From Ailanthus altissimus (Eukaryota > Streptophyta > Magnoliopsida > Sapindales > Simaroubaceae), in assembly GCA_946807835.1 (NCBI GenBank), contig OX327703.1, positions 8,687,501 through 8,751,500 on the forward strand: 64,000 nucleotides of DNA, read 5' to 3'. The position numbers and the translations under genes are program-made. The notes under the pieces are model-generated. The model was given only the letters and a program-made list of their open reading frames with translations. It was not told the DNA's origin and did no database searches. Below, one piece after another: positions 14,991 to 64,000 of the stretch (its first letter is position 1; the number at the start of each line of letters is the position of its first letter).

Positions 14991-15005
14991 AAGGAGGGGT
15001 GAAAT
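14991..15005 (+). promoter_or_regulatory. Polypurine tract (plus-strand primer) of chromovirus
   Basis: The purine run aaggaggggtgaaat directly precedes the LTR start TGTAAT at 15006. It is preceded by the tttgaggacgaaat stretch that typifies this clade. It would prime plus-strand DNA synthesis. Confidence 0.85.
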
Positions 15006-17777
15006 TGTAATATCCAATCTCTATTAGTAGTATTGGCGCCTAGATTTTGATATAGAGCAAATAAGACACCGTAGGGTTACTCGATTTTAACCCTATTAGA
15101 AATATTCCCTTTATAGTGTACGTGAGAGATATTAGATCTAATTTGGTAATTTCATACTCGATCGGTGCGCCGGACGACCCTAGAATATTTTTGGAATTTT
15201 TCTCTATTGGCTTAGAAAAGGAAATCCTAATTTACTACATGAATTTCCATTTAAGGGTTATGAATGGAACAAGCCTTTGTTGAGAAACATAATCCATATA
15301 TTAGAGAATGGACCAATTAGAAGAAATCTCATGGATTGCCAAGTTGGAAGTTCTAGTTAGTTCTTTGAACTATTCTAACTAGATAATTACAAATGAACTA
15401 ATTACATAATTAGTTTTTAACTAATGGCAAATTAGTAATTTTGAGTAAGTTGAAGGGAAAAATGGTCAATTGAGGGAGCACTATATATATGTTAGAAGTG
15501 TGTAGAATTTTCAAGTGATCAAAAAGCAAACACTTAGAGCACAAAGAAGAGCAAATTCGGGCAAGGTGAAGAGGTATTGCTACAGTGAAATTTCAGTTTT
15601 TTTTTCATGATTTTTCATGTGTAATCAAGCTAAAATAAGGTTACATATGAATCCTTAAGCTCAATTGAAGTCTCAATTAGTGAAAATTCAAGAAAAAGAG
15701 GTAATAAAAGCATTGTTTTATGAGTTTGATAAGTGAACTTTCAAGAATGCTCCAATTGACATTCTTATGTGTATTTTTGGCTTAGATTGAGTTGAATTCT
15801 AGTTTGGAGCTTGAAGGAGTCATCAATTTGAAGAAATTGGCAAGGTGAGAATTAGTGTTTTTGGTGATTTTGTTGTAGAGATTTCAATTGGTTGTAATTA
15901 GGGCTTTAAAATGAAGTTGGCATGATTTTGTTGTAATTGGAACAAGAAATTGAGGAAAGGAATGTGTTGGAACCTAGGGTGAAATTCTGCCACTTTAGGG
16001 AAGTTAGGAATTGAGTGGTGTTTTGATTGAATTGTTGTGTGTAAATGGTGCATATTGTAAATTGAATGTATATGGTTGATGGAAAAACCAAAAATGAAGA
16101 AAATGGGACATAATTGTCCATGTTGGAAAGGTGAAGGGCAATTATGTCCAACCAAGTTATATGGTGTTCAGTAATTTTCAGGGCGCCGGATGGTGAGTTA
16201 GTTTCGATTATGGCTCCGTAACTAAAATCGGGAAGTAGTATGCATCCAGGCTTTGTATGATGATTAGGGCGTTTAGTACTTAAATGAGATTCTAGCATTC
16301 GAGTTAGTTCTAAATGTCATTTGTGACGCGTAGGTGAAGATAACCGAGAGCGTTAACGGGAGCAGAAATCGGGAGCGAAATTGAGCGCGGAGCGGTTGTG
16401 AGTGAAAATCTGCCATTTCTTTTACCTTGCGTTTATTATGTTTTCGCATAATGAATATGCATGTTTTATGAGCTTTCGATGCATAACCATGATTTATGAT
16501 CTTAATACATATTCATAGACATGCCTTTACATGTTCGAATTGAGAAATAGTTTTAAAATTTTTGCATTCGTTTTTAAGGCCATTGGTACCCTCAGATTAT
16601 AGTGGTGATGATTGTATTAGACCCGGCCAGTATATCCCGTGCACATGGGCAGGTCTTAGTGGTGTGTCACTAACTCCGGAAAGTCGAGATGTCGAGTCAT
16701 GTGAGTCGTTCTATGTGTATGGGGTATTGTCTCGCTATATGCATGCAATGTAGGATTCCGCTGCATAGCCAGTGAGATGTCTTGATATGTCACTGTAGGT
16801 GCTGCTAGTTGAGGTGCCCCGTGACCTACTCACGTGTGCGGTGCTAGTTGAGTCGCTGCATGGGTATAGAGCTTTAGGGTTACCATTGGTACAGTTTAGA
16901 AAGAAAATGGCCGAGCGAAGATTTTACTAGTTTTCGATTTACCGATAGCATTTATGCATTTATATGTACACAGCAGTTATTATATTATACAGATTCTGAA
17001 TATAGTTTTCCAAAGATGTAGATAATACCCGCTCGGTCAGGTTTCAATAGCATATGATGTTAGAAACCATTTTACATCAGTTTTAGAAGCATGATTTCTG
17101 CATGAACTTTAGAATTTACTATCTATACATGATGTTATTTTATTGAAATTTTATTTGCACTCACTGAGCTCCTTCAGCTCACCCGTTTTGTGTTTTAAGT
17201 TTTCTGAACACCTTTCCCAGGTACAGGTCTCGGCACGCAAGCTGCTGATTCTCCTATTGCCGAGTAGTGGGCCAAATCTGAAGACCATTTTTGTACATGT
17301 AAATGTGATACATAGCACCCTTTACTTTATGCATAATAGTTGTAGGAATGTATATTTGGATGTATGATTTGAACCGAGAAGAAGAGATTTCAATTTTATG
17401 ATGATCGTTCTTTTTACTTCTATGATTACGCTTATTTGTGATTCAAATGAATAATTGAGTTGTATTGGATTTGATTTGGAAAGGACCGGAGGTCCGAATT
17501 GGTAGAATTGAGATGTATTGGAAATAGAAGTGAAATTTCTTTGCAGGTTTTATATGGATTTTCTGAAAAACAGGGGAAACTTTGTCCGTTTGTTTTTAAA
17601 ATTAAGATGTCGTTTTCGTGTATGTTACTAGACCTTCTTAGTAGTAACAAGAATTAAAAAGGGGTTCGCCTCGTGGAATTTCTTAACATACCCAGTTAGG
17701 TTCGGAGAAAATTCCGTCGGGGTGCCCGGCAGGGCCGCTGGGATCTATAGTAGAGGGTCTAGGGTCGGGTCCTATCA
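15006..17777 (+). repeat. Chromovirus 3' LTR, complete (2772 bp)
   Basis: The boundaries are TGTAATATCC at 15006 and GGTCCTATCA at 17777. Four other full or nearly full copies lie in the window, all in reverse: 18033-20794, 45698-48479, 56617-59399, and the partial copy at 60566-61431. Short open frames within it (for example minus-strand 15898-16298) recur in every LTR copy with substitutions that show no coding constraint, so I do not call them genes. Confidence 0.9.
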
Positions 17778-18017
17778 GGTCTGAGGTGTAGGAACATTTA
17801 CTGACTCATTTCCCTGCTCCTCTTTAGGCGCAAGAGCCTCCGCATCTGCTCTCCTAGTACGTGGGCCTCCACGATGATGCGTATTTTCTGAAAATTTAAT
17901 GATGCAAATGATTATCAAATGCAAAGAATTCAACTTACTAAACTTAGAAAAATATGCATGCAATTTTAAGAATCTCATTTCAAAAATGAACTTTTTAACT
18001 AAAACTTCAAAAATCGT
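17778..18017 (-). pseudogene. gag: Chromovirus gag N-terminus and leader (minus-strand copy)
   Basis: On the minus strand a short leader follows the primer-binding site, then an open frame from 17978 whose later part reads R-G-G-P-R-T-R-R-A-D, then P-K-E-E-Q-G-N-E-S and P-T-P-Q-T at the edge of the inserted LTR. The natural continuation (E-A-S-Q-P-A-E-P-E-D, then I-A-Q-M-A-Q-I-L-A-A-A-I-Q) is found at 10518 and below. The two halves therefore flank the inserted plus-strand element. This proves the nesting order. Confidence 0.8.
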
Positions 18018-18029: not shown

Positions 18030-18032
18030 CTC

Positions 18033-20794
18033 TGATAGGACCCGACCCGAGACCCTTTACTATAGATCCCAGCGGCCCTGCCGGGCACCCCGACGGAAGT
18101 TCCTCCGAACCTAACTGGGTAAGTTGAGAAATGCCGCGAGGCAAACCCCCTTTTAATTCTTGCTACTACTGAGAAAGGCTTGTAATATACATGAAAATGA
18201 CATCTTAATTTTAAGAAAATGGACAGAGTTTCCCCTGTTTTTTAGAAAATCCATATAAATCCAAAAAACAATTTCACTTCTATTTCAAACACATCTCAAT
18301 ACTACCAATTCAGACCTTTGGTCCTTTTCAAATCAAATCCAACACAACTCAATAGTTTCATTTAAATCACAAAATGAGCATACTCATGAAAAGAAAAATG
18401 ATCATCATAATCTCAAAATCTTTTCTTATTGGTTCAAAATATACATACAAATATACATACCTACAACTACTATGCATAAACTAAAGAGTGTTATTTAGCA
18501 CATTTACATGTACAAAAATAATCTTCGAATTCGGCCATTACTCTGCAATAGGAGAATCAGCAGCTTGCGTACCGAGACCTGCACCTGGAAAGGGGGTTAA
18601 GAAAACATAAAATACAAAACCAGTGAGCTAAAGGAGCTCAGTGAGTGCAATTAAGATTTCAATTACAAGAACATAATGCATAGATAACAAATTTTAAAGT
18701 ACATGCAGAAATCATGCTTCTAAAACTGATGTAAAACTATAAAACGGTTTTTAATATCATATGCTAATGAAATCTTGCCGAGCGGGTTTTATCTACATCT
18801 TTGGAAAACAATATCCAAAATCTGTATAATATAATAACTGTTGTTTGCATATAAATGCTATCGGTAAATCGAAAACTAGTAAAATTCTCGCTCAGTCATT
18901 TTCTTTCTAAATTGTACCAATGGTAACCCTAAAGCTCTATACCCATGCAGTGACTCAACTAGCACCGCACACGTGAATAGGTCACGGGGCACCTCAACTA
19001 GCAACACCCACGTGACATCTCAAGACATCTCACTGGCTATGCAGTGGAATCCTACATCGCATACATATAGCGAGACAATACCCCGTACACATAGGGTGAC
19101 TCACTTGACTCGACATCCCGACTTCTCGGAGTTAGTGACACACCCCCAAGTCCTGCCCATGTGCACGGGATATACCGACCGGGTCTAATACAATCATCAC
19201 CACTACAATCTGAGGGTACCGATGGCCTTTAAAACAAATGCAGAAATGTTAAAACTAATTCTCAAATCGAACATGTAAAAGCATGTCTATGAATATATAT
19301 CAAGATCATAAATCATGTTTATGCATCGAAAGCTCATAAAACATACATATTCATTATGCGAAAACATAATAAAAGAAAAGTAAAAGAAATGACAGATTTC
19401 TACTCACAACCACTCCGCGCTCAATTTCGCTCCCGATTTCTGCTCCCGTTACCACTCTCGGTTATCTTCACCTACGCGCCACAAATGACATTTAGAACTA
19501 AATCAAATGCTAAAATCTCATTTAGCTACTAAGCGCCCTACTCGGCATACAAAGCCCGGATGCATACTACTTCCCGATTTTTATTTACGGAGTCATTTAA
19601 TCTAATCTAACTCACCATCCGGCGCCCTGAAAATTATTGCACGTCCTATAACTTGGTTGGACATAAATGCCCTTTACCTTTCCAAAATAGACAATTATGT
19701 CCCATTTTCTTCATTTTTGGTTTTTCCATCAACCATATACATTCAATTTATAATATGCACCATTTACACACAACAACTCAATCAAAACACCACTCAATCC
19801 CTAACTTCTTTAATGTGGCAGAATTTCACCCTAGATTCAAACACATTCCTTTTCTCAATTTCCTGTTCCAATTACAATAAAATCAAGCCAATTTCATTCT
19901 AAAACCCTAATTACACCCAATTGAAATCTCTACATCAAAATCACCTAAAACCCTAATTTTTACCTTGCAAATTTCTTCAAATTGATGACTCCTTCAAGCT
20001 CTACACTAGAATTCAACTCAATCTAAGTCACGAACACACACAAGAATATCAATTGAAGTATTCTTGAAAGCTCACTATCAAACTCATAAAACAATGCTTT
20101 TCTTATCTCTTTTTCTTGAATTTCCACTAATTGAGGCTTCAATTGAGCTTAAGGATTCATATGTAACCTTATTTTGGCTTGATTACACATGAAAAATCAT
20201 GAAAACTAAAATTTAACTATAGCAGCACCTTCAACCTTTGCACGAATTTGCTCTCTTTTTTGCTCTAAGTGTTGTCTTTTGATCTCTTGAAAACTCTACA
20301 AACTTCCAACATATATATAATGATCCCTCAATTGACCATTTTGCCCTTCAACTTACCCAAAACTTCTAATTTGCCATTAGTTCAAATGGAAAGATTTAAT
20401 TGGTTCCTTTGTAACTATCTAGTTAGAATAGTCAAAGGAACTAACTAGAGTTTCCAACTTGGCAATTTATGAGATTACTTCTAATTGGTCCATTCCTTAA
20501 TATATGGATTGTATTTCTCAACAAAGGCTTGTTCCATACATAACCCTTAAATGAAAATTCATGTAGTAAATTAGAATTTCTTTTCTAAGCCATTAGAGAA
20601 ACATTCCAAAAATATTCTAGGGTCATCCGACGCTTCAACTGCATGTGAAATTACCAAATTGGGTCTAATATCTCTCACGCGCACGATAAAGAAAATATTT
20701 CTAATAGGGTAAAAATTGAGTAACCCTACGGTGTCTTTATTGCTCTATACCGAAATCTAGGTGCCAATACTACTAATAGGGATTGGATATTACA
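18033..20794 (-). repeat. Chromovirus 5' LTR of minus-strand element (2762 bp)
   Basis: It starts tgataggacccgaccc (reverse complement of the LTR end) and ends ggatattaca. With the primer-binding site, gag halves and 8010-8262 fragment it defines a minus-strand element spanning 8010-20794. The flanks caagg (8005-8009) and ttttg (20795-20799) do not match, so the original target duplication is not preserved. Confidence 0.9.
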
Positions 20795-22099
20795 TTTTGC
20801 ATAGATAGTAAATCTAAGTACATGCATATATTATACTTCTAAAACTGATGTAAAGTTGTAAAATATTTTCTAACATCATATGCTGATGAAATCTTGCCGA
20901 GCGAGTTTTATCTACATCTTTGGAAAACAATATCCAAAATATATATAATACAATAACTTCCATGTGAATATAAATGCATGAAATGCTATCGGTAGATTGA
21001 AAACTAGTAAAGTCCGCGTTCGGCCATTTTTTTTCTAAATTGTACCAATGGTAACCCTAAAGTTCTATACTCATGCAGCGACTCAACTAGCACCACACAC
21101 GTGAGTAGGTCACGGGGCACCTCAACTAGCAGCACCTATAGTAACATCTTAAGACATCTCACTGGCTATGCAACAGAATCCTACATCGCATACATATAGA
21201 GAGACAATACCCCGTACACATAGAGCGACTCACATGACTCGACATCCCAACTTCCCGGAGTTAGTGACATACCCCATGACCTGTCCATATGCACGGGATA
21301 TACTGGCCGGGTCTAATGCAATCACCACCACTATAATCTGAAGGTACCAATGGCTTTTAAAATGAATGCAGTAATTTTAAAATGATTTCTTAAACCGAAC
21401 ATGTAAAAGCATATCTATGAATATATATCAAAATCATAAATCATGTTTTGCAATGAAAGATTATAAAACTTATATTTTCATTATGTGAAAACATAATAAT
21501 CGAAAGATAAAAGAAATGACAGATTTTCACTCACAACCGCTCCGCGCTCAATTTTGCTCCGGATTTCTGCTCCCATTACCGCTCTCGATTTTCTTCACCT
21601 ACGCGCCATAAATGACATTTAGAACTAAATCAAATGCTAGAATCTCATTTAACTACTAAACGCCCTAATCGGCATACAAAGCCCGGATGGATACTACTTT
21701 TCGATTTTCATTTACGAAATCATTTAATCTAATCTATCTTACCATCTGGCGCCTTAAATATTATTAAATGCCTTATAACTTAGTTGGATATAATTGCCCT
21801 TCAACTTTCCAAAATAGAAAATTATGTCCCATTTTCTTCATTTTGATTTTTCCATTAGCCAAATACATTCAATTTACATAAGGCACCATTTATACACAAT
21901 AATTCAACCAAAACATAACTCAAGTCCTATAATCCCCTAAGTGGCCGAATTCACCTTCTCCACCAACACAATTTTTTTTTCAATTTCTTATTCCAATATT
22001 ATCCAAATTGAGCCAATATAATTTTAATGTCCTAATAACCTTCAATTGAAGTTTTTATATCAAAATCATACCTAATCCGTAATTCTACACATTCACCTA

Positions 22100-29012: not shown

Positions 29013-30705
29013 TGTGGGATGGTTATTGTTATGACATTCATAACGCAACGGAATAAAAAATATATTTTCATTAGATAAAAACACTTTTTATCTAAGGATC
29101 TTATGAATATATGAATTTAATGTTAAAATAAATAAAAATTAACAAGAACATACCTTGAATCCACGTCGAATTTTCTTCCACTAAAGGATTCCAAACCAAG
29201 CCTCTTGTTCTACAATGAAAGGAAGAGTGGGCTTCCAATTTTTCCTTCACTCAAGAAAAAAAAAATACGTATCCTGCGATTTTTTCACGTATGTCTTGTG
29301 TTTTATTTAGACTAGTCTTCTTATTTTAAAATAATAATTTAATTAATAATATTTACTAATGAAATTATTATCTCTTAAAAGGAGACCTAATTCATATAAA
29401 CCACATAGAGTCCTACTATTTGTGGTTAACGTATAATACCCAATATTTGAGCATTATTAGTCTTTTAATAAAAGAAAAATACTAAAATTAAAATTAAAAT
29501 CTTTTTAATAATTTCAAAAATTATCCATAAGATTTTATTTATTTAATTTCTTAAATTAAATATTTAATTATATTTAGGTAAGATCTTATCTATATTAATT
29601 AATTATCAATTAATTAATTTTATCCAAATTTAAACTATACGTATTTGAAAACTAGTTTCTAGACACAAACAATTTGTGTAATAACACAATCATTTTTAAA
29701 TGTTCATTGTAATAACGAAAGAGGTAGTATTGGAGACCTATGGGGCTACAATTTCAAGTTCCAATAAATTTTAAACAATTAATTAAACTCTTTAATTAAT
29801 TAATTCAATTTATTAATTCCAGTGTTATTCCACTAAAAACCTGGATTGCACTATTGAAATTGTAAATATAATTTACTCAGAAAACTTAAAACAGTCCATT
29901 GATTTAATCACTAAATATAATTTAATCCTCCATAGATTGTTCATAATTAGAGCTAGGTTAATTATCGTTTTACCCTATAATTATTTCTTTATCCTTAAGT
30001 ACCATTAATTCACCAGTGAACAGCTAATTTGTAACATTATTACAAATTGAGCGCTCAAACCGTTCAGTTCTAAAATTAACCCTTAAGAGAACCTTCTTTC
30101 TAACTTCCATTAGAAATGAATGGATTCCATATCTGTAAATCATATTCCTAACCGTTTATCTCACAATGCCACCAAAATGCAAGTTTTTAGTTTATTCTTT
30201 AAACAAACCGTAACGAGTATTTTAAATATATTAATGACACAAACTGGAGTTTATGATCACTCAGGATGAAGGTTAATCAGTATATGATCATCGGTTGACG
30301 TTATTTGAATTCTTAATTAACAAAGGTATTTTATATAATAATTCAAACTACGTTTGGTCAAGTCCTATATAATCATATTATATATAGTGCCTCGACCATA
30401 ATGTCACTACATTAGTGATCCGGATAAGATCACTACATTTTAAATATTTGTGAACCGCACTATTAAATTTAATTAAAGATCCCAAACTTTAATTAATTTA
30501 TTACAGACTTTTTCTGTTTATTATCCATAACCTTAATCCTCTTGTATATAATAATTATATACTAAAATTATGATTACATAAATAAACAAGAGATTTTCTG
30601 ATATTTATGTCATAAAATTATGAACACTCATTAAGTATAAAATTATAACTTTATTAATTGCATAAAAATAGTACAAGTACATGCTTTTAGGGCATTATCC
30701 CTAAC
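29013..30705 (-). repeat. Element R 3' LTR (1693 bp)
   Basis: On the minus strand it begins TGTTAGGGATAATGCC at 30705 and ends ACCATCCCACA at 29013. It aligns along its full length with 53453-55161 with scattered substitutions and small indels. Confidence 0.9.
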
Positions 30706-30722
30706 AATCTCCTACTTCCCCT
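30706..30722 (-). promoter_or_regulatory. Element R polypurine tract
   Basis: The minus strand reads aggggaagtaggagat immediately before the LTR start. This is the usual copia plus-strand primer position. It follows the RNase H stop codon at 30721-30723 and overlaps it slightly. Confidence 0.8.
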
Positions 30723-31165
30723 AAAGTAGGTGAGACATGTCTCTTAAACCCATGCCCTCCATATGACTCTCAAACGACTTAGTTAATAATGTCTTGCTAA
30801 ATGGGTCTACAAGATTATTTTCAGATGCTATCTTTATGATTACCACATTACCTCTATGCACTATTTCCCTGATTAAGTGATACTTTCTCTCTATATGCTT
30901 TGCTTTCTTATGGCTCCTAGGTTCCTTTGAATTTGCCACTGCCCCACTATTGTCACAGTAAAGGGACAATGGTTTATCCATGTCTAGAAAAACTTTCAGA
31001 TCAGTGAAGAACTTCCTAAGCCATATTGTTTCTTTAGCTGCTATGTATTCAGCCTCTATGGTTGAATCAGCAGTAATGGATTGTTTTACACTTCTTCAGA
31101 CTATGGCTCCCTAACCAAGAGTAAAACACTGACCCAGATGTTGACTTTCGACTATCTTCTATTGT
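30717..31165 (-). pseudogene. Copia RNase H C-terminus (element R)
   Basis: The minus strand from about 31165 encodes S-R-K-S-T-S-G-S-V-F, then the A-E-Y-I-A-A-K-E block with frameshifts. From 30981 an intact frame to the natural stop reads L-Y-C-D-N-S-G-A-V-A-N, then H-I-E-R-K-Y-H and N-N-L-V-D-P-F-S-K. These are the last catalytic and structural blocks of copia RNase H. Sequence upstream of this in R (RT) is gone, replaced by the leader of element F. Confidence 0.85.
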
Positions 31166-32632: not shown

Positions 32633-32708
32633 TGTTGGCGGATCTTAATCCACGTGGGTGTATGCATGTGAAATTGTGTCTATTACCTAAATACGTATCA
32701 TATACGAA
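32633..32708 (-). repeat. Reverse copia solo LTR, piece 1
   Basis: tgttggcggatc...ccacgtgggtgtatgcatg is the reverse complement of the copia LTR end (compare 26000-26037 and 49160-49244). The Athila-like element cuts it at 32709. Its outer flank atatg pairs with atacg at 41794. Confidence 0.75.
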
Positions 32709-33145
32709 TTGAGCTAGAACATAAAGCTTATTGGGCTGTCAAAGCCCTTAACTTTGATTTGAATGCTGCAGGTCTCCAAAGAAAGTTACAATTGTCATAA
32801 ATAGAAGAGCTGCAAAATGACGCATATGACAACTCCAGAATTTACAAAGCTAAAATGAAAGTAGCTCATGATAAACAGATCTCAAGGAAATACTTTGCGC
32901 CCAATTAACGGGTCTATCTTTGTGATTCGCGATTGCATTTACACCCTGGAAAGTTGAGATCTCGATGGACTGGTCCATTTATGGTAAGACATGTTTTTCC
33001 TAATGGTGCTACTGAAATTGAAGACCCCACTGATGGACGGACTTTCAAAGTGAATGGACAGTGGCTAAAAAGCTACGTGGAAAAGGTAGACGACTCTATG
33101 TACCTAGGCAAGATCCCTTTTGTTGATCCTGTCTATCGTGATTGA
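32709..33145 (+). pseudogene. Athila-lineage integrase C-terminus
   Basis: The frame encodes E-H-K-A-Y-W-A-V-K-A-L-N-F-D-L, a stop, I-E-E-L-Q-N-D-A-Y, I-Y-K-A-K-M-K, a stop in the A-P-N-x-R-V-Y-L stretch, then an open tail. The tail reads R-L-H-L-H-P-G-K-L-R-S-R-W-T-G-P-F, then F-K-V-N-G-Q-W-L-K-S-Y, and ends at TGA 33143. This is the integrase C-terminal domain of Athila/Tat retrotransposons. There is no chromodomain, as expected. It fixes the lineage of the element carrying the two downstream genes. Confidence 0.88.
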
Positions 33146-33393
33146 TCAGGTTCAATCTATCTGTACTATATTTTATATTTTGTCTATATTTTATCTTTTG
33201 ACTTTTTATTTTTGCTTTTATTTTCTTGCACATTTTATTTTACTTTATTTTCTTCTTTTTATTTTTTCTTCAACGTGATTTTATTTCCCGGTCAAGTGGC
33301 GGATATGGTACTCCGTGACTATTAAAGTTGGTTTCTCAGTTCCCTAAAAACTGTCCCTCAAACTGTGCATTCATCTCTTTTCTTTCTTTCAAA

Positions 33394-33876
33394 ATGGATC
33401 GCATTCTTGCCAACTTTAAAATACGTTTTCCTTCATTGCCTCAAAATACTCTACTTAAGATTTACAAAGCACGGTGTGAAAGACTAAGGTTATTGATGTT
33501 GGATAATATCCCTGAGGACCTTTGTTGGTTAATTGAAGCCAAGGTTCGGTTGTCTGGTGAGTTTGAAAATGATTTTGTTTCTCATATGCCTGGTCTTGGA
33601 AGAAGCTCTTATGCCAAAAGGCGACGAGAAAAAAGGTTACAAGTCTGTCATAAATGTGCTCGATGGAATTGTAATCGGAGTTGTCGTTCTTTAGGATTCG
33701 TATCTAGAAACCGAGAAGAAAAAATTCAGTTCATTAAGGATGGATTGAGTAAGGAGTCTTTGGATGATATCCTATTGACTCCTGAGACACATCCCTGTGG
33801 GCTTGTGCAAGTGAACTTCTCGATTTATGGAACAAATTCAAAAATGAACATCAACGGTATAGTCTCGGGAATCTAA
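33394..33876 (+). CDS. Arg/Cys-rich accessory protein, possibly viral NABP-like
   Basis: An intact 160-residue frame. The ATG at 33394 sits in a good context (ttcaaaatgg). An in-frame upstream start at 33328 would add 22 residues and is less convincing. Residues ~70-95 carry a G-R-S-S-Y-A-K-R-R-R-E-K-R basic run, followed at once by C-H-K-C-x4-C-x3-C, a likely zinc site. N-terminal to this is a helical-looking segment (C-E-R-L-R-L-L-M-L-D), and the C-terminal part is acidic/polar. The order of basic run then Cys cluster resembles small nucleic-acid-binding proteins of carlaviruses and relatives. That is a motif judgement, not a database result. It lies between integrase and LOG, where Athila elements may hold an env-like ORF, but I see no signal peptide or membrane segment. 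It is undamaged although both neighbours carry stops. Confidence 0.6.
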   Translation: MDRILANFKIRFPSLPQNTLLKIYKARCERLRLLMLDNIPEDLCWLIEAKVRLSGEFENDFVSHMPGLGRSSYAKRRREKRLQVCHKCARWNCNRSCRSLGFVSRNREEKIQFIKDGLSKESLDDILLTPETHPCGLVQVNFSIYGTNSKMNINGIVSGI

Positions 33877-34196
33877 CTCTAAAAGACTCTGTTTGCCAAT
33901 TTATAAGAAAATTGGATGGGAAGCCTATCCCCGACCCATAGAGGGCGTTTAAGCCGTTACTGGACGTAAAACCAGAGAAAGATGTGAGCCACAATCACAA
34001 CTACTTGTAAATACATGTGTTTTAATTTCAAACTTTATTTTATGAATAGTAGAGCTACTCATGTAGATGTCTTAAATTCAAATCTTTTTGTTCAATAATG
34101 CATGTGGGTCATTATGTTTAAATTTTTGTGTTTTATTTTTAACTCTCTTTTGACAAACTATCGGATTACCATAATCATTGTTATCATTTGGTACTC
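33877..34196 (+). other. Region between accessory ORF and LOG, possible frameshifted tail
   Basis: In another frame, 33870-34011 stays open except for one TAG at 33939 and reads like protein (S-V-C-Q-F-I-R-K-L-D-G-K-P, then L-L-D-V-K-P-E-K-D-V). The accessory protein may therefore once have been ~45 residues longer. The rest (34012-34196) is AT-rich with no features until the TATA-like box. Confidence 0.4.
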
Positions 34197-34204
34197 TATA
34201 AATA
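34197..34204 (+). promoter_or_regulatory. TATA-like box upstream of LOG copy
   Basis: tataaata lies 53 bases before the LOG ATG, so a start site ~30 bases downstream would leave a short 5' leader. This placement matches plant RNA polymerase II promoters. It could mean the captured gene brought, or evolved, its own promoter inside the element. A chance match in AT-rich DNA is possible. Confidence 0.4.
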
Positions 34205-34256
34205 CAGCACCTCATTTTTTTCATTTTCATATATTGAGATAAAGGTGAGTGTAGAT

Positions 34257-34904
34257 ATGGAGGAAACCCAAGTTCGACAATTTTGAAATATATGTGTATT
34301 TTGTGGATCTAGTCCTGGGGAGAGTAAAGTGTTCGTAGAAGCAGCAAACAATCTAGGAAAAGCATTAGCTGTAAGAAAAATTCATTTGATTTATGGAGGA
34401 GGTAGCCTTGGGCTAATGGGGTGTGTGTCAACAGCTGGACATTTAGGAGGAAGTCAAGTTTTAGGTATTATTCCTACAACTTTGGCTGTAGGAAACCTGA
34501 CCGGGAAAACAATAGGGGAAGAATTACGAGTCTCATCCATGCATGAACGTATAGCTAGAATGTTTTGCAATGCAGAGGCTTTTATTGCTTTACCAGGTGG
34601 TTTTGGTACCTTGGAAGAAATTTTTCAAATTGTCTCTTAGGCCCAACTGAATATCCACCGAAAACCCATAGGTTTGTTGAATGTTAATAACTATTTTGAT
34701 TGCTTTCTTTGTTTTCTTGATCAAGTTGTGGAATAGAATTTTATTTCACATTCGGCGCGACAGATCCTGGTTTCTGGTATTGAGGCGGATGAATTGATTA
34801 ACAAATTACAGGCAGTTACCTACGAACCTGACCCAGCAATAACTCGAATCGATTGGTCAGTAGGCCTTAACAAGCGAAAATTGGATCTGACACTTCATTT
34901 GTAA
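34257..34904 (+). pseudogene. LOG-like: LOG-family cytokinin riboside 5'-monophosphate phosphoribohydrolase, intronless copy
   Basis: One uninterrupted frame of 215 codons, the usual plant LOG length, from ATG 34257 to TAA 34902. Only point stops break it: TGA 34284, TAG 34638 (in the S-W-A-Q-L position, TGG to TAG) and TAG 34734. Family blocks are in order: V-F-C-G-S-S-P-G at ~14-21, Y-G-G-G-S-L-G-L-M-G near 45, G-I-I-P near 70, M-H-E-R-I-A-R-M near 100 and A-L-P-G-G-F-G-T-L-E-E near 117. The Arg and Glu used in catalysis are present; the usual Lys after the Arg is Ile. LOG releases active free-base cytokinin from its ribotide in the cytosol. Plant LOG genes have several introns and this copy has none, so it is retrocopied. 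It lies inside an Athila-like element between pol and the 3' LTR. Confidence 0.88.
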
Positions 34905-36247
34905 ATTTTTCTTTTTATTTATTTATTTATCAGTATCATCATTTTAGTTTATATTTGCTTAAGTGTCTCTTAGGTTTGTTTCTTTCAAATAACTGGCGTT
35001 TCAGGTAATGTCTCCTATACTTTATCTCTTTCTATTTAAACATTGAGGACAATGTTTCATCTGGTTTGGGGGGAGGATAGTAGACATACGTTGCAATTTG
35101 GAAAAAAAAAATAAAAATAAAAATAATTGTGGTCCGACATTTGATTAAAATGGCAGAGTAAAGAGTTCATTCTTGAACTCTTGAGACGCATTCTAAGTCA
35201 AATTAGAATGGCAGAGTAAGGAGTTTTAGTACTAACTTTTGAAATGCATTTTAACTAACTTTTTGTTGTTTTGTTTTATATTTCATGCATTGTCGTTTAC
35301 TGCTTGTAGTCTTGGTAATTCTTGTATAAAGGAATTTGCTTTTCTGCCTAAGTATGATTTCAGAATTGTTTAGGTTGAGTCACTGTTTCTATCTAGGTTA
35401 CTAAAGAATGACTTCCAAAATATTTTTGAGCACAATGCTAAGCCTTGTGGTAAGATGGATGATTCAATTTATATAGCCAAGAGAATTCCCATGTTTAAGT
35501 ATATATTTTTCTAAATCTCACATATATTTTGTGAGTAAGTGGAAAGGTTGAGAAAATAGCTTATGAACCTTCATTGATCCTTTGAATTGGTTTATTTTTG
35601 TTTAGAATGATATTATTTGAATTAAGGGATAAGTTGGTTGCATTTGTGTATAATATAATTTGGTGAGAAACCTTTGTAATGCTTCCTTGTATTCTTCAAA
35701 AATACTAAAAAAAAAGCAAAATACTAAAAAAACATAGAGAGCAAAAATTCAGTTTAATAAAGTCTTCATTCAATTTTAGAAGACAAATATTTTGTAAAAC
35801 AGTTTTCTCACCAAGTTATAATTGTATTATTCTCACAAGCCAATTAAAGTTCTAAAGCTGGCGTATGATATGAATAATTAATTTTTTAACAAATAATTTT
35901 CCTATCTTTTGATCAATGTTAGTTTATATGTCTGTCCTTAAAATTGACTTTTTCTTGAGTGCTTAACCGTTTTCCAACTCTATAAGAGAAGTCCCAACCT
36001 TTTAAACAGTCATACACCTGTGAGGATATGGAGTTGAGGCTTTTACTTGGAGAAATTCTCAAGGCTATATCTATTGTGGTTTGTGGTTAGATGGTTATGG
36101 CTTAGTTCACACACACAAATTATGGAAGTTGTAATTGAAAAAACCATGATAGCAACAGTGATCTCGAACTGACGTTTTGATTGAAATGCTTAGGTAGTTT
36201 TGCATATTCTATTTACGCTTGAATTGCTAGAGACTAGCAATAAGCTA
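34905..36247 (+). other. Non-coding 3' region of Athila-like element
   Basis: No open frame is supported. At about 35040-35080 it has 'cattgaggacaatgtttcat' followed by a purine run ggggggagga, a signature I associate with the region downstream of Athila/Tat coding sequence. A ~75 bp imperfect duplication is seen at 35150-35270 ('tggcagagtaaggagttt' type units). From about 35270 onward it is mirrored in reverse at 62994-64000. Confidence 0.65.
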
Positions 36248-36256
36248 GTTGGGGGC
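36248..36256 (+). promoter_or_regulatory. Polypurine tract of Athila-like element
   Basis: gttgggggc directly precedes the LTR start TGTGATGAAC. The reverse copy has the same gcccccaac at 62994-63002, which supports the boundary. Confidence 0.75.
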
Positions 36257-37813
36257 TGTGATGAACATATAAAAATACATGTTGTTAAGAGATTCAATCA
36301 CCATTTAATGTCACTAATTTTAGTATTTTCTATATTTTTAGCTTGAAATAAAGTGTTCTCCTTAAATTGTGATTAATGAATGTTATTTGGATAGGTTTAG
36401 GTAAAATGGACATAACTCTCAATGTAGAAATTGAAATGAAGAAATTATTGAACCTGGTGCAACATGACTCAATCTTACACAAATTTGAAGAATAGTGGAA
36501 AAGCCAAATCCAACATGTTATAGGCCAAATATTGAGATACAACAGAATCGGACTACAACTCCTGCCCAGCTTGACCCAACTCATGTATTTGGACCGTATC
36601 TCACAAAATACATACTCAATTGGTTTAATTCTTGAAGCTGTGAATTTTTAACTTAACTATCAACAACTCGTATGTTGATGGTAAAGTCCAAATCAGCCGT
36701 TATCATGGACCAAATCGTATTGTAAGTGGGTAAAATGGTTGTTGGCTGAATTCTGATGTATCTTTGGAATTTTGCTCATATCTCATTAGATACGCATCCA
36801 ATTTGCATGAAATAGGTGCCTATAAAAAGAAGAGTCAAAATTATACAACTTTTATGTTGGCTGTAGAAGCTAAATCAGTAATTTACATTATCAAAAATAT
36901 GCTGCAAGTGGATAAACAAATTATTAGCTTAAAATTATTGAAGATTGATGTCATCCATGACATATGTCCATTCATTGCCTATATAAGGAGACACTTAGGA
37001 CATTTTTAAAATTAGATAATTCTCTCTTATTTTCTTCTCATTAACATGTATTGTAATTTAGGCTAGAGTTCTTGGCAAGGCTAAGAGATGAACTTTTATG
37101 TGTAATAAATCTACTTTCATGCTTTGATTCGGTGTCAAGAGCTATAAATGTTGTAAGTTTGGTTTTGATTAAACTCTTATCTATTTTATTTTCTATAATC
37201 CAGAGGTTATAATTCTCATGTCTCATATATGTTCAGTCATGCTTTTCTTATGTGATTCATGTTGATTTATAATTGTTACTGGTTATATTGTTTTATATGT
37301 TAATCTTTTACTGCAGTATTGTCAATTTGATATATTGTCGATCTTGGATAACATGTAAGAGCAATAAATGTTTGATATTCAAGTTAATATTTTACTGCAA
37401 TATTGTCAAAATGATATATTGTCGATCTTAGATAACTTGTATAAATAAACATGATTTGTGTTAATATTTGCAAAAGAGTTTAGTCATATCAAATGCATAT
37501 GCTATCAAATGTGCTATATGTTACATATCTTCTGATTGGTTGTTTAGATGTAAAACTGTCAATTGAGTTATAAACATTGAATCAAAGTATAGAGTAGATT
37601 TATAAAGCATAATTGTAATTCTCAAAGCCTTGCTTAAATCATCATAAGATATTTTTCTCAATTCATAGACAATTCTATCTCATCAATTAATTTTATCCTT
37701 TGCTACCTCTTTAATATTTTACTTCACCAACCTATTTTGCCAAGAGCTTCCTCGTGGGATCGACACCTCAATCTATACTGCGATAGCCGCGTTATATTTT
37801 GAGCGTAAATACA
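36257..37813 (+). repeat. Athila-like 3' LTR (~1557 bp)
   Basis: It runs from TGTGATGAAC to gcgtaaataca. It matches the inverted LTR at 61432-62993 along its whole length, with similar size and only scattered changes. The end carries the 'ggatcgacacctcaatctat' stretch typical of this lineage. The next base onward is the interrupted reverse copia LTR. Confidence 0.88.
37309..37443 (+). repeat. ~80 bp tandem duplication within Athila-like LTR
   Basis: The 'actgcagtattgtcaat...gatatattgtcgatctt' unit at about 37311-37363 recurs at about 37393-37443. The reverse LTR has the same two copies (about 61810-61950), so the duplication predates both insertions. Confidence 0.7.
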
Positions 37814-45697: not shown

Positions 45698-48479
45698 TGA
45701 TAGGACCCGACCCGAGACCCTCTACTATAGATCCCAGCGGCCCTGCCGAGCACCCCGATGGAAGTTCCTCCGAACCTAACTGGGTATGTTAAGAAATTGC
45801 GCGAGGCGAACCCCTTTTTAATTCTTGTTACTACTAAGAAGGTCTAGTAATATACATGAAAATGACATCTTAATTTTAAAAACAAACGGACAGAGTTTCC
45901 CCAGTTTTTCAGAAAATCCATATAAAACTTGCAAAGAAATTTCACTTCTATTTTCAATACATCTCAATTCTACCATTTCGGACCTCCAGTCCTTTCCAAA
46001 TCAAATCCAACACAACTTAATTATTCATTTGAATCACAAATAAGCGTAATCATAAAAGTAAAAAGAACGATCATCATAAAATTGAAATCTCTTCTTCTCG
46101 GTTCAAAACATACATCCAAATATACATGCCTACAACTATTATGCATAAAGTAAAGGGTGCTATTTAGTACATTTACATGTACAAAAAAATGATCTTCGGA
46201 TTTGGCCCACTACTCGGCAATAGGAGAATCAGCAGCTTGCGTACCGAGACCTGCACCTGGAAAATGGGTTTAGAAAATATAAAACACAAAATGGGTGAGC
46301 TAAAGGAGCTCAGTGAGTGCAAATAAATTTCAATAAAATAACATCATGTATAGATAGCAAATTCTAAAGTTCATGCAGAAATCATGCTTCTAAAACTGAT
46401 GTAAAACTGTAAAACGGTTTCTAATATCATATGCTATTGAAATCTTGTCGAGCGGGTTTTATCTACATCTTTGAAAAACTATATTCAGAATCTGTATAAC
46501 ATAATAACTGTTGTGTGCATATAAATGCATAAATGCTATCGATAAATCAAAAACTAGTAAAATCCTCGCTCGACCATTTTCTTTCTAAACTGTACCAATG
46601 GTAACCCTAAAGCTCTATATCCACGCAGCGACTAAACTAGCACCGCACATGTGAGTAGGTCACGGGGCACCTCAACTAGCAGTACCCACAGTGACATCTC
46701 AAGACATCAAACTAGCTATGCAGCGGAATCCTACATCGCATGCATATAGCAAGACAATACCCCGTACACATAGAGCGACTCACATGACTCGACATCCCGA
46801 CTTCTCGGAGTTAGTGACACACCCCCAAGACTTGCCCATGTGCATGGGATATACCGCCCGGGTCTAATACAATCATTACCACTATAATCTGAGGGTACCA
46901 ATGGCCTTAAAAATGAATGCAGAAATTTTAAAACTGTTTCTCAATTCGAACATGTAAGGGCATGTCTATGAATATATATCAAGATCTTAAATCATGGTTA
47001 TGCATCGAAAGCTCATAAAACATGCATATTCATTATGCAAAAACATAATAAACGAAAAGTAAAGGAAATGGCAGATTTCCACTCACAACCGCTCCACGCT
47101 CAATTTCGCTTCCGATTTCTGCTCCCGTTATCGCTCTCAGTTATCTTCACCTACACGCCATAAATGACATTTAGAACCAAATCGAATGCTAGAATCTCAT
47201 TTAACTACTAAATGCCCTAATCGGCATACAAAGCCCAGATGTAAACTACTTTCCAATTTTTATTTACGGAGCCATTTAATCTAACCTATCTCACCATCCG
47301 GTGCCCTGAAAATTATTGAACGCCTTATAATCTTGGTTGGACATAATTGCCCTTCACCTTTCCAAAATGGATAATTGTGCCCCATTATCTTCATTTTTTA
47401 TTTTTCCATCAACATATACATTCAATTTACAATATGCACCATTTACACACAACAATTCATTCAAAACACCACTCAATCCCTAACTTCCCTAAAGTGGCAG
47501 AATTCCACCCTAGGTTCCAACACATTCCTTTTCTCAATTTCTTGTTCCAATTACAATAAAATCATGCCAATTTCATTCTAAAGCCCTAATTACAACCAAT
47601 TGAAATCTCTACAACAACATCACCAAAAACCCTAATTCTTACCTTCCCAATTTCTTCAAATTGATGACTCCTTCAAGCTCCAAACTAGAATTCAACTCAA
47701 TCTAAGCCAAGAATACACATAAGAACATCAATTTAAGCATTCTTGAAAGCTCACTTATCAAACTCATAAAATAATGCTTTTCTTACCTCTTTTTCTTGAA
47801 TTTCCACTAATTGAGGCTTTAATTGAGCTTAGGGATTGGTATGTAACCTTATTTTGGCTTGATTAATCATGAAAAATCATGAAAAAAAAACTTGAATAGT
47901 CACTGTAGCAACACCCCCCTTTGAAGCTCGAATTTCTCTCTTTTTTTGTCTAAGTGTTGGTTTCGATCTCTCTTCCAATTTCTACACACTTCTAACATAT
48001 ATAGTGCTCCCTCAATTGACCATTTTTCCCTTCAACTTACTTAAAACTTCTAATTTGCCATTAGTTCAAATGAAAAGATTTAATTGATTTCTTTATAACT
48101 ATCTAGTTAGAATAGTTAAAAGAACTAACTAGAGTTTCCAACTTGGCAATCCATGAGATTGTTTCTAATTGGTCATTTTCTTAATATATGGATTGTATTT
48201 CTCAATAAAGGCTTGTTCCATTCATAACCCTTAAATGGAAATTCATGTAGTAAATTAGGATTTCCTTTTCTAAGCCAATAGAGTAAAATTCCAAAAATAT
48301 TCTAGGGTCATCCGGCGCACCGATCGAGTGTGAAATTACCAAATTAGGTCTAATTTCTCTCACGTACACTATAAAGGGAATATTTCTAATAGGGTTAAAA
48401 TCGAGTAACCCTACGGAGTCTTATTTGCTCTATACTGAAATCTAGGCGCCAATACTACTAATAGGGATTGGATATTACA
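45698..48479 (-). repeat. Chromovirus solo LTR with perfect TSD aaaat (2782 bp)
   Basis: tgataggaccc...ggatattaca is flanked by aaaat at 45693-45697 and 48480-48484. No internal sequence remains. It is closely similar to the LTRs at 15006 and 18033. Confidence 0.95.
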
Positions 48480-49244
48480 AAAATGGTTATTTCACACTTT
48501 GATTATTTAATAGTTAAATAATTAAAATATCTCTCTTATTATATTTTATTATATAAATAATAATATTTTATTTTTGGGTGCCAAATAGTTGGCACTATTA
48601 TGTGATTACTTTATTATTATTATTATATATATTATATAATATATTTTATTAATATTATATTAATATTTTATTTTTTATATATAAATATATAAAGAGAAAG
48701 AGTGAATTGTTGTGTCGGTCATTTTGGCCTAGAAAGAAGAAGAAAGAAATGGAGAATAAGAAGAAATGAAAGAAAATGAGAAGAATAAGAAGAAGAAGAA
48801 AAGAAAAAAAGGGGAAAAAATGAAATTATTTCTTTTTTTCTATGCTTCCAATTGAAGCAATGGTAGATTACTTTAAATTCTCCATTTCTTATCCTTTTGG
48901 AGAAAATGATAAAAACACATGCCGCCCATTTTGGGGTTTAAGAGTTAAATCCAGTGCTGCGTATGGGGCTGCTGTTCTAGCTTACTAAGCCTACCGTGTT
49001 AGTGATTAGAACTACCCGCGAGTTGGTCTTCATGCAAACTCTAGAAAACAAATACATGTATAACGTTACACGTTGAGGTAAGTTCTCTACCCTATAAATA
49101 TATTAATGAGATTAATATATATTTATTTATTGTGTTTATTGCAAGTTTCACACTTCTGTCAGACTTAAATATGTATTTAATATGTATTTAGGCAATAGAC
49201 ACAATTGTACATGCATACACCTATATGTACTAGATCCTCCGTCA
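48480..49244 (+). repeat. Element F 3' LTR, second portion
   Basis: It resumes the copia LTR (atggttatttcacac...) and includes a TA/TTA microsatellite (48537-48690) and a GAA-rich purine tract (48725-48830). It ends at the gcatacacctatatg...gtca word near 49244, where element R integrase begins on the minus strand. Confidence 0.85.
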
Positions 49245-53452: not shown

Positions 53453-55161
53453 TTATGGGATGGTTATTATTATGACATTCATAACGCAGCGGAATAGGAA
53501 ACAAAATTTTTTAATCTTTGTTTTTATTAGATAAAAACAATTTTTATGTAAGGATCTTATGAATATATGAATTTAATATTAAAATAAATAAAAATTAACA
53601 AGAACATATCTTGAATTCACACCGAGTTTTCTTCCACCAAAGAATTTCAAACCAAGCCTCTTATTCTACAATAAAAGGAAAAGTGGGCTTCCAATTTTTC
53701 CTTCTCTCAAGAAAACAAAATATGTATCCTGCATTTTTTTCACGCATATGTCTTGTGTTTTATTTAGACTAGTCCTTTTATTTTAAAATAATAATTTAAT
53801 TAATAATATTTACTAATTAAATTATTATCTCTTAAAAGGAGACCTAATTCATGTAAACCACATAGAGTCCTATTCTTTGTAGTTAACGTATAATACTCAA
53901 TATTTGAGCATTATTAATCTTTTAATAAAAGAAAAACACTAAAATTAAAATTAAATCTTCTTGATAATTTCAAAACTTATCCTTAAGATTTTATTTATTT
54001 AATTTCTTAAATTAAATATTTAATTATATTTGGATAAGACCTTATCTATATTAATTAATTCTTAATTAATTTTATCCAAATATAAACTATATGTATTTGA
54101 AAACTATTTTCTGGACACAAACAATTTGTGTAATAATAAAATCATTTTTAAATATTCACTGTAATAACGAAAGAGGTGGTACTGGGAACCTATAGACCTA
54201 CAATTTCAAGCTCCAATAAATTTTGAATAATTAATTAAACTCTTTAATTAATTAATTCAATTTATTAATTCTGTATTATTCCACTAAAAACTTGGAATTG
54301 CACTATTAAAATTGTAAATGTAATTTACTCAGAAAACTTAGAACAGTCTATTGATTTAATCACTATATGCAATTTAACCCTCTATAGATGGTTCATAATT
54401 AGAGCTAAGTTAATTACCATTTTACCCCTCTAATTATTTCTTTATCCTTAAGTACTATTAATTCACCAATGAACAGTTAATTTGTAACATTATTACAAAT
54501 TAAGCGCTCTAACCATTCAATTTTAGAATTAACCCTTAAGAAAACATTCTTTCTAACTTTCATCTAGGAATGAATGGATTCCATATCTATAAATCATATT
54601 CCCAACTGTTTATCTCACAATGCCACCAAAATACAAATTTTTAGCCAATTCTTTAAACAAACCGTAGCAAGTATTTCAAATGATATAATGACACAAATAT
54701 GAGTTTATGATCATTCAAGATTAAGGTTAATCAGCATATAATCATCGGTTGAGGTTATTTGAATTCTTAATTAACAATGGTATTTTATATAAGAATTTAA
54801 ACTACGTCTAATCTAGTCCTATATAATCATATTATATATAGTGCCTCCACCATAATGTCAATACATTAGTAATCCGGATAAGATCACTACATTTTAAATG
54901 TTTTTGGACAGCACTAGTAATATTTAATTAAAGATTCCAAGCTTTGATTAATTTATTACGGAATTTTTCTGTTTATTATATATAACTTTAATCCTCTTGT
55001 GTATAACAATTATTTACTAAAGTTATGATTACATAAATAAACGAGAGATTTTTTTATATTTATATTAGAAAATTATGAACACTCATCAAGTATAAAATTG
55101 TAACTTTATTAATTTCATAAAAATAGTACAAGTACATGCTTTTAAGGCATTATCCCTAACT
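53453..55161 (-). repeat. Element R 5' LTR (~1.7 kb)
   Basis: The minus-strand start lies at 55161 (a-gttagggataatgcc, one base off the TGTTAGGG of its partner). The end lies near 53453. It aligns with 29013-30705 throughout. It is followed on the plus strand by the ggtga duplication at 55162. Confidence 0.9.
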
Positions 55162-61431: not shown

Positions 61432-62993
61432 TGTTTACGCTCAAAATATAACGCGACTATCGCAGTATAGATTGAGGTGTCGATCCCACGAGGAAGCTCT
61501 TGGAAAAATAGGTTGATGAAGTAAAATATTAAAGCAGTAGCAAAGGATAAAATTTAATTGATTTAAGTGGATGAGATAGGATTGTCTATGATTTGAAGGA
61601 AATGTCTTATGATAATTCAAACAAGGCTTCGAGAATCATAATTATGCTTTATAAATCTACTCTACACTTTGATTCAATGCTTATAACTCAATTGAAAGTT
61701 TCACATCCCAAACAATCAATCGGAAGATAGGAAAATATAGCACATTTGATAACACATGTATTTGATTTAGTTAAACTCTTTGCAAGCATTAACACACATC
61801 ATGTTATTTATACAATTTATCTAAGATCGATAATATATCATTTTGACAATATTGCAGTAAACAATTAACTTGAATATCAAACATTTATTGCCCTTACATG
61901 TTATCCAAGATCGACAATATATCAAATTGATAATACTGCAGTAAAAGATTAACATATAAAACAATGTAACCAGTAATAATTATAAATCAACATGAATCAC
62001 ATAAGAAAAGCATGACTGAACATATATGAGACATGAGAATGATAATCTCTAGATTATAGAAAATAAAATAGATAAGAGTTTAATCAAAACCAAACTTACA
62101 ACATTTATAGCTCTTGATACCGAATCAAAGCATGAAAGTAGATTTATTACACATAAAAGTTCATCTCTTAGCCTTGTCAAGAACTCTAGCCTAAATTGCA
62201 ATACATATTAATGAGAAGAAAATAAAAGAGAATTATCTTTTAAAAATTTCCTAAGGGTCTCCTTATATAGGCAATGAATGGACATATGTCATGGATGATA
62301 TTAATCTTCAATAATTTTAAGCTAATAACTCGTGTATTCACTTGCAGCACGTTTTTAATAATGTAAATGATCAATTCAGCTTCTGCAGCCGACATGAAAG
62401 TTGTAGAATTTTGAATCTTCTTTCCATAGGCACTAATTTCATGCAAATTGGATGCGTATCCAATGGGATATGAGCAAAATTCCAAAGATACATCAGAATT
62501 CGGCCAACAACCATTTTACCCACTTGCAATGCGATTTGGTCCATGATAACGGCTGATTTGGACTTTACCATAAACATATGAGTTGTTGATAGTTAAGTCA
62601 GAAATTCACAGCTTCAAGAATTATACCAATTGAGTATGTATTTTGTGAGATACGGTCTAAATACATGAGTTGGGTCAAGCTGGGTAGAAGTTATAGTCCG
62701 ATTCTATTGTATCTCAATTTTTGGCCCATAACATGTTGGATTTGGCTTTTTCACTATTCTTCAAATTTGTGTAAGATTGAGTCATGTTACACCAGGTTCA
62801 AGAATTTCTTCATTTCGATTTCTACATTGAGAGTTATGTCCATTTTACCTAAACCTATCCAAATAACATTCATTAATCACAATTTAAGGAGAACACTTTA
62901 TTTCAAGCTAAAAATACAGAAAATACTAAAATTAGTGACATTAAATGGTGACTAAATCCCTTAACAAATATGCATTTTCATGTATTCATCACA
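61432..62993 (-). repeat. Athila-like 3' LTR, inverted copy (1562 bp)
   Basis: tgtttacgctc...gtattcatcaca is the reverse complement of the LTR at 36257-37813. The polypurine tract gcccccaac follows at 62994. It marks the 3' end of a minus-strand element that extends out of the window. Confidence 0.92.
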
Positions 62994-64000
62994 GCCCCCA
63001 ACCAGCTTATTGCTAGTCTCTAGCAATTCAAGCATAAATAGAATATGCAAAACTACCTAAGCATTTCAAACAAAACGTCAGTTCGAAATCACTGTTGCTA
63101 TCATGGTTTTTTCAATTACAACTTCCAAAATTTGTGTGTGTGTGAACTAAGCCATAACCATCTGACCACAAACCTCAATAGATATAGCCTTGAGAATTTC
63201 TCCAAGTAAAAGCCTTAACTCCATATCCTCACAGGTGTATGACTGTTTAAAAGGTTAGGACTTCTCTTATGGAGTTGGAAAACAGTTAAGCACTCAAGAA
63301 AAAGTTAATTTTAAGGACAGATATATAAACTAACATTGATCCAAAGATAGAAAAATTATTTGTTTAAAAATCAATTATTCATATCATATGCCAGCTTTAG
63401 AACTTTAATTGGCTTGTGAGAATAATACAATTATAACTTGGTGAGAAAACTGTTTTACAAAATATATGTCTTCTAAAATTGAATGAAGACTTTATTAAAC
63501 TGAATTGCTTCCTCTTTCTTTTTCTTTTTTTCCTTTTTTTTTTGATTTTTTTTTCTTTTTTTTTTCATATTTTTGAATAATACAAGGAAGCATTACAAAG
63601 GTTTCTCACCAAATTATATTATACGCAAATGCAACCAACTTATTCTGTAATTTAAATAATATCATTCTAAATAAAAATTAACCAATTCAAAGGATCAATG
63701 AAGGTTCATAAGCTGTTTTCTCAACCTTTCCACTTACTCACAAAAGATATGTGAGATTAGAAAAAACAATATATACTTAAACATGGGAATTCTCTTGGCT
63801 ATATAAATTGAATCATCCGTCTTACCACAAGGCTTAGCATTATGCTCAAAAAAAAATATTTTAGATGTCATTCTTTAGTAACCTAAATAGAAACAGTGAC
63901 TCAACCTAAACAATTTTGAAATCATACCGAGGCACAAAAGCAAATTTCTTTGTACAAGAATTACCAAAACTACAAGCAATAAACGACAATGCATAAAATA
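62994..64000 (-). mobile_element. Athila-like element, 3' non-coding region (runs off the window)
   Basis: It is the inverted counterpart of 35270-36256, including the words around 'tgtgtgtgtgaactaagccataacc' in degenerate form and the T/A-rich run at 63500-63570. No gene is present in this part. In the left copy the LOG pseudogene ends 1353 bases before the LTR, so its counterpart would begin at about 64346. Confidence 0.88.

Follow-up and report, generated by a model that had tools for sequence, protein, structure and literature searches.

Athila-type retrotransposons of Ailanthus altissimus carry a LOG-family gene and a Cys/Arg-rich gene with virus-type profile matches between pol and the 3' LTR

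We analyzed a 64,000-nucleotide stretch of the Ailanthus altissimus genome (assembly GCA_946807835.1, contig OX327703.1, positions 8,687,501 to 8,751,500; hereafter the window), in which a decayed long terminal repeat (LTR) retrotransposon holds two additional open reading frames (ORFs), one of the LONELY GUY (LOG) family and one rich in Cys and Arg, which matches the viral profile Viral_NABP and is called NABP below. Both are genes of an Athila-type element and lie between pol and the 3' LTR. We draw this conclusion from their occurrence at the same place and with fixed spacing in many copies, and from the LTRs and target duplications found in two copies of a second family. It bears out the initial annotation, made from the window alone, which had assigned both ORFs to the element and had allowed that ORFs present at a single locus, or lying outside LTRs elsewhere, would be a chance insertion; in the genome search the copies recurred, and two of them were bounded by LTRs.

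The search covered 939 Mb in 37 contigs. Only the best-scoring places of each search were scored, and the resulting lists are therefore lower bounds and are biased toward intact copies. With the LOG profile PF03641 there were 4943 first-look candidates; the best 150 all exceeded the cut-off and had no inner stop, and most of them were frames of 250 or 238 codons. With the Cys/Arg ORF of the window there were 5653 candidates, and again all of the best 150 matched, at 83–93% identity (the window itself excepted), with no stop in the matched part in 144. About 32 of the 37 contigs look chromosome-sized; the assembly might hold both haplotypes, in which case copy counts would be doubled.

We read seven copies of the window family: the window copy, its neighbor L033, two from the LOG list (L034 and L035), and three from the NABP list (L037–L039). 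All seven contain both LOG and NABP, with starts 863–864 nt apart. Both genes are uninterrupted in L034 and L035; LOG is also uninterrupted in L033, where NABP has one stop, and in L039, where NABP is broken. L037, L038, and the window copy have three LOG stops each, of which the one at codon 10 is common to two copies, the one at codon 128 is common to two, and the others differ; this pattern fits decay after insertion.

Ten copies of the second family (L009–L018) were selected from the LOG list. NABP was detected by tblastn in 10 of 10, as a frame of more than 140 codons in eight, and nine copies have long frames upstream, at the expected pol site, several of them split by stops. The intact pol frame of L011 contains, in pieces and in this order, aspartic protease, reverse transcriptase, RNase H, and integrase, which is the Ty3/gypsy order. 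The two copies with flanks have LTRs of 1.44 kb that are 99.86% identical, and both have 5-bp target duplications (AACTT and TCTAG); at usual clock rates, the LTR identity suggests that these two insertions are tens to a few hundred thousand years old. Their primer-binding site is TGGCGCCGTTGCCGGGG, which we take to be of the Athila type, and our assignment to Athila is based on this primer-binding site type together with the extra ORFs in the 3' region.

LOG and NABP are both under purifying selection between families. We estimated omega (dN/dS, the ratio of nonsynonymous to synonymous divergence) by the Nei-Gojobori method with 500 codon bootstraps, each value representing one pair of copies. 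For LOG, omega was 0.16 (0.08–0.25; 482/500 bootstraps usable, dS 1.5) between the second and window families, 0.31 (0.20–0.48) between the second family and a third, antisense family described below, and 0.27 (0.16–0.41; 499/500 usable) between the antisense and window families, while for NABP it was 0.22 (0.13–0.40) between the second and window families. The dN/dS comparison that the initial annotation had suggested thus returned purifying selection for both genes. As a yardstick, four pieces of pol were compared, with dS saturated in three. When the window copy was compared with its sister L033, LOG gave an omega of 2.0 over 103 codons and NABP one of 0.57 over 115 codons, as expected of decay. 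Within-family values were left unused because the copies had been selected for high scores.

The element LOG matches the family profiles PF03641 and TIGR00730 and scores below the cut-off of the NCBIfam equivalog CtkRMPhLog (131 versus 300 bits). The PGGxGTxxE motif is present in all 26 of our own rows (26 starts at 25 distinct places) and in 106 of 120 database rows. These database rows, the best 120 of 7800, include many from Reevesia as well as sequences from Xanthoceras, Populus, Diplodiscus, and Paulownia; they are known as protein sequences, and it is from these that they were called element-type. We built a tree of 69 rows, consisting of five of our own, 42 of the 120 closest, 20 of 120 host LOG1/LOG3-like sequences, AtLOG8, and one bacterial sequence. 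The 47 element-type rows fall in one group (support 99/92), within which 44 rows, our five among them, form an inner group (support 100/98) that includes named sequences of Populus, Reevesia, Diplodiscus, and Paulownia, and the 21 host rows form a separate group (support 99/98). Among the rows sampled, the LOG gene of these elements is thus one old clade apart from the host LOGs. The three basal rows (P0184, P0236, and P0237) keep the host-type pocket and could represent either host genes or early elements. The initial annotation had inferred capture of a host LOG mRNA, and a recent capture is at odds with this tree, whose host side consists of the LOG1/LOG3-like rows and AtLOG8 and whose three basal rows are ambiguous.

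We then compared residues of the LOG pocket, named after PMC4979012, the available text of which gives Arg99 and Glu122 as the proposed catalytic residues and Met96, His97, Lys100, Glu125, and Trp129 as the prenyl-group site, with Lys100 also in the adenine site. Arg99 is kept in 115/120 database rows and 25/26 of our own, and Glu122 in 118/120 and 26/26. Lys100 and Glu125, both of which are kept in all 120 host LOG rows, are both replaced in 112 of the 120 database rows and in all 26 of our own, Lys100 by Met, Leu, or Ile and Glu125 mostly by Gln or His. Eight database rows keep the Lys/Glu pair and include the three basal tree rows and three long gene models, a distribution that fits one early double change. 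Judged from these residues, the element LOG would have retained its chemistry and probably changed its specificity. Because Lys100 and Glu125 are replaced, we name it a LOG-family protein and not a demonstrated cytokinin-activating LOG, and the pocket change suggests caution with regard to cytokinin production.

The Cys/Arg-rich ORF of the window matches Viral_NABP (E 1.7e-6) and Carla_C4 (E 4.8e-5), in both cases over the curated cut-off; the second-family proteins of L001 and L002 are over the cut-off for Viral_NABP and below it for Carla_C4. There were 463 relatives in the protein database, and the best 120 include proteins from Xanthoceras, Acer, Populus, and Rhamnella. When 31 relatives chosen from these 120 were scanned at E 0.01, Carla_C4 was found in 31 and Viral_NABP in 29. 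The layout of the gene is a basic stretch, seen in 103 of the best 120 relatives, followed by a zinc-finger-like motif, C-x2-C-x4-C-x3-C; in the form C-x2-C-x4-C-x2-4-C this motif is present in 100 of the 120, 94 of them with x3. As judged by profile matches, the gene belongs to the carlavirus Cys-rich (NABP/CRP, Cys-rich protein) family of plant RNA viruses, and this kinship rests on the profiles because the structure model is too poor. According to the accessible parts of two papers, several viral CRPs suppress RNA silencing (PMC3689765, PMC12172455), and the one encoded by chrysanthemum virus B acts as a transcription factor and induces hyperplasia (PMC12172455). A search of the IMG/VR viral contigs, which reaches close relatives, returned none for NABP, LOG, or a 453-aa ORF, and a plasmid search returned distant bacterial matches only. 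As a separate observation, NABP and LOG matches occurred on equally long contigs (8723 and 4511) from shared sources, which hints at linkage in other plants but may be chance and was not counted.

Upstream of LOG we found a conserved TATA box. The 10-mer CTATAAATAC lies 61–74 nt 5' of the LOG start in 24 of the 26 starts (25 distinct places); the starts scored were those found by a motif, which leaves out copies whose start has changed. In L001 the 10-mer is present as a variant, and L014 retains TATAAATA. The 10-mer occurs once in the window, where 0.39 occurrences are expected. For 24 of the 26 starts scored, a GGTGAG resembling a 5' splice site also lies within the 25 nt that precede LOG (34232–34256 in the window), and the RNA fold of the LOG leader has a z score of −2.4.

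The LOG block with its TATA box is also present, in antisense, in a young, unrelated, non-autonomous LTR element. This third kind of LOG carrier (L019–L028, selected from the top of the LOG list) consists of short LTR elements without a pol-length frame, whose end repeats are 98.2–100% identical, with an LTR of about 2.7 kb where it is fully resolved and, in L027, a 5-bp target duplication (CTAAT). A primer-binding-like TGGTATCAGAGC and a purine tract are placed so that LOG runs antisense to the element. In these copies, chosen as they were from the top of that list, LOG is uninterrupted in 10 of 10. L021 and L011 share a single block of DNA, at 77% identity, which starts 2 nt ahead of the TATA box and ends about 180 nt beyond the LOG stop; its edge was taken from BLAST, since identities from gapped alignment above the TATA box are inflated by AT-rich DNA. 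The moved unit would thus have included the core promoter, as is more readily understood if nucleic acids of the elements recombined than if a LOG mRNA was captured, and we infer the direction of the transfer between elements. Fetching loci by the ORF that precedes LOG in the antisense element returned three, of which one was the query's own copy and the other two also hold LOG; this ORF has an inner stop in 74 of 93 scored copies. L021 376–9669 is an example of the short non-autonomous element, with LOG and another ORF antisense. Its ORF preceding LOG (L021 3886–5244, plus strand) has no Pfam match; over its first 31 residues it is similar, though not significantly (PDB 8r0s, E 0.1), to a pararetrovirus polyprotein at its RNase H end. 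The LOG list also contains three sites where two copies of LOG are separated by about 6.6 kb, as tandem elements would be.

The copy in the window is a dead, truncated member of a multi-copy Athila-type (Ty3/gypsy) family (Table 1). It is without a 5' LTR and has almost no pol, its 5' cut lying inside integrase, and copies 94.9–95.8% identical to it are found both beside the window and on other contigs. The integrase end (element match from about 32696), the 160-codon Cys/Arg ORF, the intronless frame of LOG length, the purine tracts, and the LTR follow in one orientation, as the initial annotation had noted. With the Pfam matches of the two ORFs, the copies set this arrangement apart from chance. 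That reading had called the Cys/Arg ORF intact, whereas it departs from the frame of its 182-aa relatives after about codon 139; it had called the LOG frame (Pfam Lysine_decarbox, E 3.3e-29) full-length, which holds for its length but not for its coding capacity, given premature stops at codons 10, 128, and 160. A non-coding stretch separates the LOG frame from the purine tract and 3' LTR. Nor does the purine tract at about 35063–35077 adjoin the LTR; the tract that does so lies at about 36250–36258, as in the second family.

Table 1. Features of the retrotransposon copy in the window and of its sister copy (window coordinates)
Feature	Position	Strand	Basis or remark
Decayed Athila-type LTR retrotransposon copy, 5'-truncated	32697..37813	+	94.9–95.8% identity to L033, L034, and L035 over the shared part
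Integrase-region remnant, pol end	32709..33145	+	Call of the initial annotation; 67% DNA identity to the L011 pol end
Cys/Arg-rich gene, Viral_NABP / Carla_C4 family, 160-codon ORF	33394..33876	+	Frame lost after about codon 139
TATA box CTATAAATAC, 61 nt 5' of LOG start	34196..34205	+	Sole window match; same place in 24/26 LOG starts
LOG (cytokinin riboside 5'-monophosphate phosphoribohydrolase family) pseudogene, intronless, 215 codons	34257..34904	+	Premature stops at 34284, 34638, and 34734
Purine-rich tract adjoining 3' LTR	~36250..36258	+	Sequence; second family has the same layout
3' LTR, TGATGAAC ... CA	~36259..37813	+	Sequence; matches inverted copy from 61434
Sister copy of window family, 3' part	61434..64000	-	Continues into L033 with LOG and NABP

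Elsewhere in the window there is a 2.8-kb repeat in several copies that are 84–92% alike and partly inverted (15002–17778, 18032–22086, 45698–48480, and 56616–59399) and a repeat pair that is 90% alike (29015–30981 and 53456–55160). The minus-strand ORF at 30721–30981 resembles the end of a copia-type RNase H.

That Athila-like/Gypsy elements can carry LOG is already published. Steinbauerova et al. reportedly described, in 2011, two Athila-like elements with similarity to LOGL4. In the available text of PMC9289625, which cites Steinbauerova et al. 2011, Gypsy consensuses from Citrus sinensis, C. clementina, and Populus trichocarpa are given as having a YgdH domain of the LONELY GUY type, so the remark in the initial annotation that Athila/Tat elements were not known to encode LOG is outdated. 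Those LOG-bearing Gypsy elements resemble ours in having a LOG-family domain, but a virus-type companion, a TATA box, an antisense carrier, a pocket change, and selection are not described in the accessible portion of that paper. In the parts available, neither LOG nor cytokinin is mentioned in PMC7264820, which reviews extra ORFs, or in PMC6317226, which deals with classification, and a 2026 review of gene capture (PMC13317346) mentions neither cytokinin nor LONELY GUY. Our literature search found no report of a carlavirus-type Carla_C4 (PF01623) / Viral_NABP (PF05515) gene in a retrotransposon and, within the accessible text of the sources, none of a conserved TATA box, an antisense second carrier, the pocket change, or LOG/NABP selection figures. 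As far as this search goes, all five are new here.

Other known systems resemble these elements in part. A Phalaenopsis Gypsy element with an AlkB-type m6A RNA demethylase likewise carries an enzyme gene of captured origin that plausibly serves to counter host control, but it carries a different enzyme and, in the text available, its activity is shown in vitro (PMC9289625), whereas ours is known from sequence. From what is accessible of PMC11728184, the extra-ORF protein of Tekay elements in sunflower and grasses is similarly conserved and has been suggested to modulate RNA silencing, but it belongs to another lineage, is a different protein, and has no reported viral profile match; most extra ORFs of plant LTR retrotransposons lack conserved domains (PMC11728184). 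The CRP/NABP proteins of carlaviruses, allexiviruses, and mandariviruses share with ours the Viral_NABP and Carla_C4 matches and a basic stretch beside a zinc-finger-like motif, whereas ours is encoded by an LTR retrotransposon, is longer (182 aa), and has another Cys spacing. Host LOG1/LOG3-type proteins, to one of which (AtLOG3) the element LOG is about 50% identical, share with it the fold family, PGGxGTxxE, and the catalytic Arg and Glu, but the element gene forms a separate clade, has the Lys100/Glu125 pair replaced, and is intronless. Host LOG genes have introns.

We consider it somewhat probable that this multi-copy Athila-type family keeps a trans-acting, CRP-type NABP and a remodeled LOG because they favor the element. 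By kinship, NABP would most likely bind nucleic acid and weaken RNA silencing or regulate transcription. With a TATA-box promoter of its own, LOG could be expressed independently of the LTR transcript and whichever way it is oriented. With its catalytic Arg and Glu and a remodeled base/prenyl pocket, LOG probably hydrolyzes a nucleotide monophosphate, its specificity having been altered or broadened, and the two proteins may influence the host cell in trans and so favor expression or replication of the element. Several observations weigh against this proposal. The viral profile match spans about 80 residues of NABP, the structure model reaches a pLDDT of 54, which is poor, and potato virus H has a different Cys spacing, C-x2-C-x9-C-x4-C. 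The accessible text of PMC3689765 has the chrysanthemum virus B CRP unable to suppress locally induced silencing, and that of PMC12172455 has it a weak silencing suppressor. His97 of the prenyl-group site is lost in 63/120 database rows (kept in 57/120 and in 26/26 of our own), and NABP is present in 0/10 of the antisense family L019–L028, so that LOG and NABP are not always together. A broader proposal, which we find conceivable but doubtful, is that a widespread lineage carries a two-gene module for host reprogramming, with a silencing suppressor or transcription regulator shared with plant RNA viruses and a neofunctionalized, TATA-driven LOG nucleotidase, and that LOG is a mobile cassette which crossed in antisense into an unrelated retroelement and was kept there.

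In an extension of the idea in the initial annotation, the element LOG could instead be an ordinary cytokinin-activating enzyme that, together with a CRP promoting cell growth, drives division of the host cell, so that replication of the element takes place in cells that divide or are germline-fated. Family membership, the kept catalytic residues, and the hyperplasia-inducing transcription factor described for chrysanthemum virus B (PMC12172455, in its available part) agree with this idea, which we nevertheless regard as rather unlikely, with two prenyl-site residues replaced in 26/26 of our own and 112/120 database rows. It is also unlikely, and somewhat more so, that the Cys-rich ORF has no homology to viral NABPs and arose within the element as a nucleocapsid-like or env-slot protein whose zinc finger happens to be similar. 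The short profile match, the Cys spacing, and the poor model noted above speak for such an origin, but two separate viral Pfam models match 31/31 and 29/31 relatives, and the window ORF is over the curated cut-offs for both. LOG and NABP could also be harmless passengers of no benefit to the element. Many copies are broken, and the inner stops in 74/93 scored copies of the ORF that precedes LOG in the antisense element show that dead genes can be copied along. Between-family omegas of 0.16–0.31 with bootstrap upper bounds of at most 0.48, and a LOG that is open in 10/10 antisense elements (selected from the top of the LOG list), make passengers improbable in our view. Finally, a host-LOG retrocopy inserted by chance at one locus, for which the broken state of the window copy might speak, is barely credible given that order and spacing recur unchanged in many copies and that the LOG clade lies apart from the sampled host LOGs; insertion at a single locus was ruled out by the copies found across the genome, near the window and far from it.

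These elements offer two extra ORFs whose chemistry is recognizable, which evolved under purifying selection between families, and which have young relatives. This combination makes the function of extra ORFs testable, in particular whether a retrotransposon carries a silencing suppressor of plant-virus type and whether it alters nucleotides or hormones of the host. For annotation, element-type LOGs may be counted as host genes, and Populus proteins named LOGL10 fall in the element-type clade. If the proposal is true, a single system would show genes shared among RNA viruses, their host, and retroelements, as well as between two lineages of retroelements.

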